Origin: a virus
IMG/VR virus record: IMGVR_UViG_3300048549_000353
Span: 1-25,981 of that record
Reading direction: 5' to 3' (one strand)
DNA length: 25,981 nucleotides
Position numbers and translations under genes: made by a program
Notes under the pieces: model-generated
Database searches by the model: none
What the model saw: the letters and a program-made list of their open reading frames with translations, nothing else
Told to the model about the DNA's origin: nothing
Shown here: piece after piece, positions 7,494 to 16,038 of the stretch
Layout of the letters: every line of letters starts with the position of its first letter
Position numbering within the stretch: the stretch's first letter is position 1

Positions 7494-7508
7494 TTACTCA
7501 TCCTCTCT

Positions 7509-7644
7509 GGCAGATAGGTGTTAGTTTTGCTCCATACATAGCCATCTTGGTAGTCTTTATGTTGGCTTTCAAGGACTAAGAATCACCAACCATCTAACAC
7601 TATCTACCTTTATAACATCTCGTTTAGTTACCCTCTAACTAAAC
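7509..7644 (-). ncRNA. Predicted structured leader or small RNA
   Basis: On the minus strand a perfect 9-bp hairpin, GTTTAGTTA (7644-7636), loop GAGGG, TAACTAAAC (7630-7622), comes first. A long-range helix then pairs 7608-7594 (GGTAGATAGTGTTAG) with 7524-7509 (CTAACACCTATCTGCC): 15 pairs with one G-U and one bulged base. The enclosed 69 bases can form further short stems (GTTGG 7590-7586 with CCAAC 7565-7561, or TAGTC 7578-7574 with GACTA 7555-7551 as a partly exclusive alternative). A promoter-like site lies directly upstream at 7652-7682 and the 90-aa gene begins 16 bases downstream. It may be a cis-acting leader (switch, attenuator, protein-binding leader) or a processed RNA. No known class was recognised. 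Confidence 0.55.
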
Positions 7645-7651
7645 TGTAACC

Positions 7652-7682
7652 ATTATAAACATGATATATATGATTATGTCAA
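7652..7682 (-). promoter_or_regulatory. Strong-consensus leftward promoter upstream of structured RNA
   Basis: Minus-strand TTGACA (7682-7677) and TATAAT (7657-7652) are both perfect sigma-70 consensus hexamers, with a longer than ideal 19-base spacer. The spacer contains the 13-bp motif shared with the 6482 promoter (plus strand 7661-7673). The -35 overlaps the end of the upstream 64-aa gene. The predicted start (about 7645) coincides with the 5' edge of the perfect 9-bp hairpin. Confidence 0.6.
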
Positions 7683-7877: not shown

Positions 7878-8165
7878 CTAGAATGGTGGTGTATCATCAT
7901 TGAATATTGCTTCAATGTCATTAATATTTTTCTTATCTTGGCTACCCAGCTTGTCTTTTGGATTGTATGTGTTGATCTCGCCATATAGTTTACCATTTTT
8001 GGCTTTCTTAACGTCTACATTGATCCATTCATCTGGATTACCTATTTCTTTTTTCATCCATGCTATGAGCTGTTTTTTATTCACACCTATTCGCATTTCA
8101 ATGAAGTCTTTGTCTGATTCATTAAAATACAAACCCTCACTAAATTTTTTATCATTCTGTGCCAT
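7878..8165 (-). CDS. Possible single-strand DNA-binding protein
   Basis: A 95-aa protein, shorter than typical bacterial SSB. The body has alternating strand-like segments (FIEMRIGVNKKQLIAWMKKE; DEWINVDVKKAKNGKLYGEI), which would suit a small OB-like fold or another beta domain. The C-terminus is acidic and ends FNDDTPPF, close to the DDDIPF-type tip by which SSBs recruit partners. It overlaps the exonuclease gene by 14 bases and follows the annealing protein, so an SSB role in the recombination module fits. The core is not a recognisable SSB, so the call rests on the tail and context. Confidence 0.5.
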   Translation of the reverse strand: MAQNDKKFSEGLYFNESDKDFIEMRIGVNKKQLIAWMKKEIGNPDEWINVDVKKAKNGKLYGEINTYNPKDKLGSQDKKNINDIEAIFNDDTPPF

Positions 8166-8838
8166 TGTCTACCTCGTGTATTAAGTTAAATAATTTGTCA
8201 TCTACAACAAATTCTTCTGTTTTTTCTGTAAACTCTTGCTCTGATAACAAAGCAAAAGCATATTCCATAAGTCTTTGTTCAAGATATTCCTCATATTCTG
8301 GGTTTCTCTCGATTTCATAGACTTGGAATTTGTGTGGACACCAATTAATAAAGTGTGTCTTCTCTGGTGCATACCCCAAACGATCTAGTACATATTGTTG
8401 TCCGAATATCTGGGTTGTATACTTAGATTTTATATCCTCTAATGAATAGATATCTTCTCCCATTTTAGGGCATTTCGCTTCGCATATTGTCTTGAAACAG
8501 TCAGTTATGCCATCTGGTGTTGATGATAGACTGACTATTCCTTTGTCTGTTTGTGCAAAATCATGCAATTCAAAGGATTTTTGGTTGTCTAAGATAAAAT
8601 AAAAGTCTTTACCTTTTTTACCTCTAAAATCAGCATACGATTTAAGGGCGTTTATTTCATTATTTCGACCATACTCAACATAGCCGAGTGCAAAACTAGA
8701 AATTTCAGGTTTTTCACCCAAAATATCCATTTGAAGTCTGGTATTTCTCTTACCATGACTTCCTCTGCCTTTGATGTACTTGTTAAACCCCAAATAGTCA
8801 ATAAATTGGCTAGATGACAGGTTATAATACTTACGCAT
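8152..8838 (-). CDS. YqaJ-type viral recombinase / lambda-like exonuclease
   Basis: A 228-aa PD-(D/E)XK nuclease that would resect 5' ends of double-stranded DNA to give 3' tails for annealing. Visible motifs are YGRNNEINALKSY (about residues 56-68, with the conserved Glu of the first helix), SSTPDGITD (D109) and ICEAKCP (E120, K122), which together form the catalytic D...ExK. YTTQIFGQQYVLDRLG (about 140-155) carries the conserved Gln/Tyr helix. Length matches the family. Its start lies inside the annealing-protein gene (8-base overlap), the standard pairing of exonuclease with annealing protein in phage recombination systems. Confidence 0.88.
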   Translation of the reverse strand: MRKYYNLSSSQFIDYLGFNKYIKGRGSHGKRNTRLQMDILGEKPEISSFALGYVEYGRNNEINALKSYADFRGKKGKDFYFILDNQKSFELHDFAQTDKGIVSLSSTPDGITDCFKTICEAKCPKMGEDIYSLEDIKSKYTTQIFGQQYVLDRLGYAPEKTHFINWCPHKFQVYEIERNPEYEEYLEQRLMEYAFALLSEQEFTEKTEEFVVDDKLFNLIHEVDNGTE

Positions 8839-11959: not shown

Positions 11960-12256
11960 ATGTATCGAAATAAAAAACTATTAGAACTGATGAGGGAACT
12001 AGACTGTCAGCATTGTGGTGCGAGTGATGGAACTGTATGTGCCTGTCACTCAAACCAATCTCGCCATGGCAAAGGAATGGGTTTAAAAGCACCTGATTCC
12101 CTTGTTGTTGCTCTTTGCCACAGGTGTCATTATTTAATGGATAGTGGGAAGCAGTTAAGCAAACAAGAACGTAGAGACATGTGGACTGAAGCATATGTCA
12201 AAACAATGAGAACATTAATTGAAAGTGAGAGGTTAATTATTAATGATAAAAATTGA
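11960..12256 (+). CDS. YbcO/DUF1364-like zinc nuclease
   Basis: The 98-aa product carries DCQHCG (residues 15-20), CACHSNQSRHGKGMGLKAPD (27-46) and LCHRCHYLMDSG (52-63). Paired CxxC/CxC motifs, then a His- and Gly-rich stretch with KAPD, then CHxCH, match the DUF1364/YbcO family of small HNH-fold nucleases in lambdoid nin regions, thought to act on recombination or branched DNA. The two-Cys pairs presumably bind structural zinc and H31/H36/H56 are candidate catalytic ligands. Its place just upstream of a Q-like gene mirrors the lambdoid order. Confidence 0.72.
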   Translation: MYRNKKLLELMRELDCQHCGASDGTVCACHSNQSRHGKGMGLKAPDSLVVALCHRCHYLMDSGKQLSKQERRDMWTEAYVKTMRTLIESERLIINDKN

Positions 12257-12461
12257 GAAAAATATACCGATAGTAAACAATGGTAGACCTTGTAAGTATA
12301 AAGAATATGTTGATGCTTTCTTGGATATGGATAAGGGAGATTCATTTGTAGTAGACAACTACAAGATCGTTAATTCTGTTAGAAAACATGCATGGAAGAA
12401 AAAGGTTGCACTAAGTTTTAGAAAATTATCAACCGATAGATACAGAATTTGGAGAATATAA
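12243..12461 (+). CDS. 72-aa unknown phage protein
   Basis: ATG lies inside the end of the nuclease gene (14-base overlap). The product has a strand-rich pattern: MIKIEKNIPIVNNGRPCKYK, then DMDKGDSFVVDNYKIVNSVR and KVALSFRKLSTDRYRIWRI. The sequence IP...MxxGDSFxV...SxR.A in front and KxxxRxxxDxxRIWRI at the end is a pattern I associate with very small phage proteins of unknown function. The following gene starts in its stop codon (TAATG). Confidence 0.65.
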   Translation: MIKIEKNIPIVNNGRPCKYKEYVDAFLDMDKGDSFVVDNYKIVNSVRKHAWKKKVALSFRKLSTDRYRIWRI

Positions 12462-14962: not shown

Positions 14963-16038
14963 TTTTTGTTTCTTAGATAATTAAGATAATCAGCACCCTC
15001 TTGTACTTCCCAAAATACTTTAATAAAGTCTGGATGATCTTCTGTGAGTTCAGTATTAAATACAGCAACAGCACAAGCTGACATCATCTTACATGGAAGA
15101 TTAAGTTGTTTAGCAAAGTTGTCGTACTTCTTATATGAACCTACTTGTACACAGTGCATAATCTTATCTGAGTTAGCATCCTTGATAGGGCTATATCCTG
15201 ATACATGAGTATGACCTGCTATGAGTAAGTGGTCTCTTGCATTGAACAATGCGTGTTTAACAATACCATGAGCTGTATTGTACATGGAATGTCCTCTGAA
15301 ATTATGAGAACAGTTTACCTTTATTTCGTGTTTAGGTAGTTTGATTTTAAGTCTTGCGTTATGGTTAGAGTATACAGTTTTTAGAGGTTTACACATCCAA
15401 GTAATCGGATCACCCTCCATAGCCCACATATCATGGTTTCCTGCAACGATAAAGATATAAGGTGTTGCATTGACTAACCATTCTACTAACTGCCATTGTT
15501 GTTCGCCATTAGTTGTTTGGTCTGCCCATAATCCTGCTAACTTACCACGTCTAGCCCAGTTATTAGATAAGTCACCAACAGAACAGGCATACATACCCTC
15601 TGTATCATTGACTATATCTATGTGCTTTCTAAGTGATACCCAATCACATCCATCATCATCAACATGAGGATCGCCTTGAATATATAATCCTATAGGTTTC
15701 TTATCATTTATCTTTATGTTGATAAACTTTTCAGACTTTTCTCTTGCTTCTTTTCTTTTGAATACTTCTGTTCTTGCATTGATTAATTCTTCTGTAGACC
15801 AATCAAGATTCTGAGCTTCTTCTAATTCATAATTCTTTATAACTTCAGGGTTTGATGTTTTCTTATTACAAGTCCTGCACTTCCATCTCTTTCTTTGTTT
15901 TTCTGAGCCATCTGTACCTGCTTTAATCAAGTGGGTTGATTTACAATGAGGGCAACATAAAGCATTACCATCTTCATTTCTTTGTATGATACCTACTCTA
16001 CTGTAGTTACCACCATTGTTATGTATTTGGTTTGTCAT
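14959..16038 (-). CDS. Calcineurin-like metallophosphoesterase with N-terminal zinc ribbon
   Basis: A 359-aa two-domain protein. Residues 28-57 contain CCPHC and CRTC, a four-Cys zinc ribbon resembling transposase/recombinase DNA-binding ribbons. From about 115 the phosphoesterase motifs appear in order: GDPHVD (122-127), GDLSNN (155-160), GNHD (200-203), SHNFRGHS (244-251) and GHTH (275-278), so all metal ligands of the family are present. It should hydrolyse phosphodiester or phosphomonoester bonds with two metal ions. The substrate (DNA ends, cyclic nucleotides, protein phosphates) cannot be told. The zinc ribbon favours nucleic acid. It lies two genes before terS, coupled to both neighbours. 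Confidence 0.85.
   Translation of the reverse strand: MTNQIHNNGGNYSRVGIIQRNEDGNALCCPHCKSTHLIKAGTDGSEKQRKRWKCRTCNKKTSNPEVIKNYELEEAQNLDWSTEELINARTEVFKRKEAREKSEKFINIKINDKKPIGLYIQGDPHVDDDGCDWVSLRKHIDIVNDTEGMYACSVGDLSNNWARRGKLAGLWADQTTNGEQQWQLVEWLVNATPYIFIVAGNHDMWAMEGDPITWMCKPLKTVYSNHNARLKIKLPKHEIKVNCSHNFRGHSMYNTAHGIVKHALFNARDHLLIAGHTHVSGYSPIKDANSDKIMHCVQVGSYKKYDNFAKQLNLPCKMMSACAVAVFNTELTEDHPDFIKVFWEVQEGADYLNYLRNKK

Follow-up and report, generated by a model that had tools for sequence, protein, structure and literature searches.

Layout of the locus

The window, by which we mean the whole stretch of DNA analysed, is a 25,981-bp marine phage contig. On its minus strand a non-coding leader extends from a promoter-like site to the gene for a 90-aa protein, which matched no known family (Table 1). 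A preliminary description of this DNA had reported both consensus hexamers and a segment without a long open reading frame just before the 90-aa gene, and both observations hold. The hexamers are exact and lie 19 bp apart; the site is missing from the list produced by a consensus scan because this spacer exceeds the usual 16–18. Relatives carry TTGACA, TTGAAA, TTGAAT or TTGCAT at the −35 position and TATAAT or weaker A/T-rich variants at −10. From these promoter-like hexamers, the transcript start is predicted near 7645 (minus strand).

Folding returned the perfect 9-bp hairpin (minus strand, 7644–7622) and the 15-pair helix with one bulge (here P1; 7608–7594 paired with 7524–7509) that had been described earlier, the latter to the exact base. 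The inner extension of P1 diverges in two relatives (L025 and L058), yet the three pairs adjacent to the core are kept. The fold of the whole leader has a z-score of −2.06, and 4 of 200 shuffled sequences folded equally well. This energy is only modestly better than that of the shuffles and would by itself be weak proof, and the case for a structured RNA thus rests on comparison. Folding of the plus strand gave a z-score of −1.5 and nothing of interest.

Table 1. Features of the leader and its flanking genes in the window.
Feature	Positions	Strand	Basis or remark
64-aa upstream gene	7868-7674	-	constant neighbour in the leader group
-35 hexamer TTGACA	7682-7677	-	exact consensus, read directly
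-10 hexamer TATAAT	7657-7652	-	exact consensus, read directly; 19-bp spacer
5' hairpin, 9 bp, GTTTAGTTA-GAGGG-TAACTAAAC, loop GAGGG	7644-7622	-	identical in 19/19 leaders of the group
P1 outer helix, 5' arm GGTAGATAG, shared socket	7608-7600	-	folding and comparison
P1 inner extension, 5' side TGTTAG	7599-7594	-	folding
Core A, exchangeable part, 69 nt	7593-7525	-	conserved in relatives; replaced by core B in others
Candidate pseudoknot stem 1, GTTGG / CCAAC	7590-7586 / 7565-7561	-	sequence; pairs invariant
Candidate pseudoknot stem 2, TAGTC / GACTA	7578-7574 / 7555-7551	-	sequence; pairs invariant
P1 inner extension, 3' side CTAACA	7524-7519	-	folding; C7518 bulged
P1 outer helix, 3' arm CTATCTGCC	7517-7509	-	folding and comparison
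Shine-Dalgarno site AGAGAGGA, directly 3' of P1	7508-7501	-	sequence
90-aa downstream gene, variable cargo	7493-7221	-	one of 7 cargo families in the group

One helix, two unrelated cores

A search with the 90-aa protein returned three contigs, and a search with a string around the 5' hairpin identified the leader in 18 contigs, giving 19 loci together with the window. The promoter-like site, the 5' hairpin and the outer helix of P1 are retained in all 19 of these IMG/VR leaders. P1 encloses either of two unrelated cores, core A in the window, L003, L011, L013 and L014, and core B in the remaining 14, and covariance models of the two found no intermediates between cores. Core A of the window is 97–99% identical to its copies in L003, L011, L013, L025 and L058. 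Two contigs with different cores (L012 with B, L013 with A) have 97.4% identity across 4.1 kb, and the difference between them is an exact exchange of the core between the arms GGTAGATAG and CTATCTACC, at the edges of P1.

The 64-aa upstream gene is constant in the group, and seven families of downstream genes follow the 19 leaders. The same gene may be preceded by core A or by core B, and each core precedes several genes, indicating that the choice of core does not depend on what gene follows. As read from these alignments, P1 is a socket for interchangeable cores. One locus only (L010:1763–1870) has what may be a trap for the start site: its ribosome-binding region, GGATAGGTAGATG, has the sequence of the P1 5' arm and could pair with the P1 3' arm instead.

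Conservation of the RNA structure

We assessed pairing in an alignment (A1) of 21 distinct core-B units, comprising P1, stem 1 and a crossing stem 2. Paired bases occupy 94.2% of cells, and the covariation score is 0.203 against 0.105 ± 0.011 in shuffled alignments, none of which (0/500) scored as high; the signal is lost when the partners are slid by 1–3 columns. Stem 2, which forms the pseudoknot, is by itself 99% paired, with UA, GC and CG types, and again 0/500 shuffles scored as high. By inspection, the GC type has originated at least twice (window group; L036/L051) and the CG type in L035. Double changes affect five pairs of the core-B P1 and two pairs of the pseudoknot stem.

A second alignment (A2) held six distinct core-A sequences. 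Here the pairing of P1 is complete (100%); one pair shows a double change and three others a one-sided change, and the inner helices are invariant. The compensatory changes that the preliminary description had named as a supporting result for the closing helix are thus clear for the socket helix across the family and weak for the core-A helix taken alone. We conclude from this comparison that the segment in the window is a real folded RNA of a modular family, the pairing of which has been kept with compensatory changes.

Conservation is much higher in the cores than in the genes around them. Between the window and L025, core A is 98.7% identical at the DNA level, terL 75.4% and the exonuclease gene 55.9%; the near-identity of core A could reflect strong selection, recent transfer or both. 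As a class the cores are not unusually stable (mean z-score −0.4), and core B alone stands out (−3.8), for which reason we rejected a pseudoknot as a rule for all cores.

Tandem arrays of cores in other phages

About 70 further phage contigs carry tandem arrays built from cores A and B and some 40 others. A search with core A led to L025 and L033, in which A is arrayed in tandem with two further cores, a variant of B and a third kind, C, each unit closed by arms like GGATAGATAGG and CCTATCTATCC. We identified core B in 36 contigs. The linker TTAATGAATT is common to the arrays, and the array linker TATCTATCCTTAATGAATT was found in 56 stretches, two of which (L057 and L096) are coding coincidences and were dropped, the match lying within coding sequence. 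The interiors of the GATA-type stems cluster into 49 groups, which we take as about 40 distinct cores because a few groups are nested or concatenated units. With a partner arm defined as nine or more contiguous pairs and an array region by a 700-base limit, GATA-type 5' arms had a partner in 125 of 134 cases near array anchors against 26 of 71 elsewhere, the latter background being overestimated since it includes some array units beyond the 700-base limit.

The cores are not bound to the GATA helix: core B also lies inside the helix GGGGCC-GATAGG/CCTAAA-GGCCCC (L052) and nested within another module (L036, L051), and the core TTTATATGGCTATGTT is closed either by TGTCTAAG/CTTAGACA or by TGTGTAGG/CCTACACA. 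In core H, the tip varies in length (25 vs 51 nt) between conserved ends. Open reading frames lie between the modules of two arrays (L063, L091), and in one of the 36 loci scanned a tRNA-Asn(GTT) gene forms one unit of the RNA array (L046:864–990). A single array region was present in each record searched.

The small linker hairpins of other arrays (GCCTAGTGATAGGT) start with the same letters as this tRNA-Asn, to whose acceptor stem they may be related. The last element of an array is often a short hairpin, with GATATAAC or GATGTAAC between it and the gene, as we noted in L055, L056, L061, L065, L068, L076, L079 and L094; the 5' hairpin of the window, followed by GAGATGTTATA, resembles this pattern. 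A 228-aa RecE-like exonuclease (PHROG 434, E 1e-4) is encoded at 8152–8838 of the window, two genes upstream of the module locus, and its counterpart lies directly upstream of the L025 array (1182–1856); such a phage recombinase could drive the exchange of modules.

Two other identities were considered for the arrays or their cores and rejected. Arrays of identical repeats, as in type III antitoxins or CRISPR-like loci, do not agree with cores that differ within an array and recur between phages. Letters resembling a hammerhead occur in one core, that of L102 and L064; the required stems are not formed, and Rfam was silent.

Carrier phages and their probable host

The large terminase of the window shares 60% identity with its counterpart in Pelagibacter phage Baldr and has relatives at 84–98% in L003, L008, L009, L013, L025, L033, L062 and L074. 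In 20 other carrier records, some of 53–55 kb, we found no such relative. L055 encodes a terminase 80% identical to the one in Pelagibacter phage Hodr, and those of L056, L068 and L094 are 75–80% identical to that of this SAR11 phage in a translated search. As the terminases differ among carriers, the modules are common to at least two phage lineages, and these sequence relationships make SAR11 the likely host.

The modules are absent from the genomes of Hodr and Baldr themselves. The array of L065 separates the homologues of two overlapping Hodr genes (15115–15462 and 15431–15958). At the sensitivity used, isolate phages gave no match to the L025 array, to several joined cores or to the L103 array, and core B was not found in GTDB genomes, where one match to a linker, in Clostridium, was judged to be chance.

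The locus tags of Hodr and Baldr seem to be swapped between GenBank records OQ414635 and OQ414636. We additionally noted that Hodr (L109, OQ414635) carries a 330-nt non-coding operon leader of its own at 12037–12372, with a folding energy of −100 kcal/mol and a z-score of −5.4. The CCAAAGGAGGATAA of the first gene is predicted to be paired with a long anti-Shine-Dalgarno stretch of the leader, TTTTCCTCCTTTGG, from which a competing hairpin (TGATCAT/ATGATC) could release it; on these predicted folds, the Hodr leader is a far better candidate for a switch than the leader of the window.

Possible roles of the modules

Core A itself contains competing helices, which the preliminary description had taken as the signature of a switching leader. 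This interpretation was not supported by the comparison, since the stems in question are absent from core B, which occupies the same socket ahead of the same genes. Control of the 90-aa gene by an attenuator or a ligand-sensing riboswitch would suit the position in a 5' untranslated region, the compact conserved core and the competing helices of core A. The same genes follow either of two unrelated cores, however, the same core precedes unrelated genes, and some 40 cores in one frame are unlike any riboswitch set. Neither did we find an aptamer tied to the genes of one pathway, the seven cargo families and two cores being uncoupled. Cores A and B share no expression platform, and no intrinsic terminator was found in the leader of the window. 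Predictions for 11 leaders leave the Shine-Dalgarno site mostly unpaired in 10 of them (0.71–0.91, with 0.79 in the window; 0.35 in L011), and no alternative pairing of it common to A and B leaders was found among the 11. With helices private to core A, no terminator and a Shine-Dalgarno site that is mostly open, a metabolite switch is very unlikely.

That the modules act as DNA, with the arms of P1 as recombination or hairpin sites and the cores as passengers without an RNA function, would account for the nearly identical arm sequence that delimits exchange in many phages and for the shared linker. This we consider barely credible, given the conservation of the cores relative to neighbouring genes and the covariation of the core-B pseudoknot, which only a single strand can form. 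Module and next gene also share a strand at 71 of 76 loci (with a crude ORF caller), indicating a strong bias of orientation. The same bias, with modules always upstream of genes, fits a generic 5' leader that acts in cis by protecting against exonucleases, by blocking RNase entry or by modifying RNA polymerase to read past terminators, as put of phage HK022 does. The cores would then be interchangeable because any such fold serves, and cargo independence agrees with so generic a role. The 5' hairpin begins at about the predicted transcript start, P1 ends beside the Shine-Dalgarno site, and in some array phages (L039, L048 and L054 among them) P1 starts close behind a TTGACA promoter-like site. 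Against a cis role, each record has one array region rather than one ahead of each operon, array units are mixed with a tRNA and whole open reading frames, several arrays are intergenic with no evident promoter in front, and conservation of the cores nearly base for base exceeds what a generic obstacle needs. We regard the cis-acting leader as the chief competing explanation, serious but somewhat doubtful.

The reading that we favour, at roughly even chances, is that each cassette encodes a structured RNA that acts in trans once it has been released from its leader or array by cleavage at A/U-rich linkers. Related phages carry from one to several different modules in tandem, among small genes and once with a tRNA. 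The RNA would be read from the promoter heading an accessory operon, the units would be separated at the linkers, and each core would act on a component of the host, in an accessory role like that of the small proteins interspersed with the modules. Phages would trade cores, probably by homologous recombination through the shared arms of P1. A trans role is suggested by the nature of the array as an accessory island, mixed with open reading frames and an excisable tRNA (a tRNA must be excised to function), and by the single region per record, the near-absolute conservation of cores and their independence of cargo. On the other side, all modules so far precede a gene, a position equally suited to a cis role, the cores are neither unusually stable as a class nor generally pseudoknotted, and their near-identity could stem in part from recent transfer rather than selection. 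One might speculate that the modules serve in anti-defence or takeover of the cell. More tentatively than the trans role itself, we suggest that pelagiphages may hold an exchangeable library of RNA effectors, dozens of unrelated folded cores on a common helix that are arrayed and traded, each core targeting a host component in trans (a defence system, RNA polymerase or a ribonuclease, for example).

Comparison with known RNAs

Searches of Rfam 15 at the gathering threshold gave no match in the window, in agreement with the preliminary description, which had recognised no class, nor in L025 or 11 of 12 further array loci; the single match among the 12 was the tRNA of L046. Permissive scans returned chance-level matches only, and ARAGORN and Rfam found no tRNA or tmRNA in the window.

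Phage tRNA arrays can hold extra stable RNAs, such as RNA C and RNA D beside the tRNAs of T4. These resemble the modules as small structured phage RNAs in tandem adjoining a tRNA, whereas here about 40 cores share one interchangeable closing helix, the modules stand in 5' leaders and among open reading frames, and tRNAs are rare. In type III toxin-antitoxin systems, tandem repeats of one pseudoknotted RNA (ToxI) precede the gene of an endoribonuclease toxin. A small pseudoknotted RNA ahead of a small gene and tandem units are common to both; however, the units of the arrays are different cores, the window holds a single unit, the downstream genes vary, and no toxin family was matched among the cargo proteins. 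The put RNA of HK022 is a structured antiterminator at the start of early phage transcripts and is independent of cargo. The modules are likewise independent of cargo; the window group and some arrays lie directly downstream of a promoter-like site, and other arrays are intergenic. The modules differ from put in their dozens of unlike cores and single locus per record, and we know of no shared sequence.

Exonuclease-resistant RNAs (xrRNAs) are compact pseudoknots, sometimes in tandem, in the 3' untranslated regions of eukaryotic RNA viruses, where they act on Xrn1 (PMC5760640). By description they are like the modules (core B being the compact pseudoknot here) in lying, sometimes in tandem, in untranslated regions of viruses; unlike them, the modules are upstream of genes and in phages. 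Structured leaders in phages of marine bacteria include the manA and wcaG riboswitches (PMC2864571) and a glutamine riboswitch, with a tmRNA, in Melnitz (PMC9004378). Those are single classes tied to particular genes, in contrast to the modules, which have no Rfam match.

We found no publication on such arrays in a literature search that left most subscription papers and all preprints outside its reach, and no described counterpart of a set of exchangeable cores on a common helix. On sequence comparison, what appears to be new is thus the modular architecture and not a function. SAR11 bacteria, like their phages, belong to the most abundant organisms of the sea, and to our knowledge little is known of the means by which the phages take over the cell. 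The modules are directly testable, since cultured relatives of the carrier phages exist. A combinatorial set of about 40 conserved cores on a common mounting helix would provide a wealth of natural RNA folds and, if the proposal of an RNA effector library is true, be an RNA counterpart of protein anti-defence islands.
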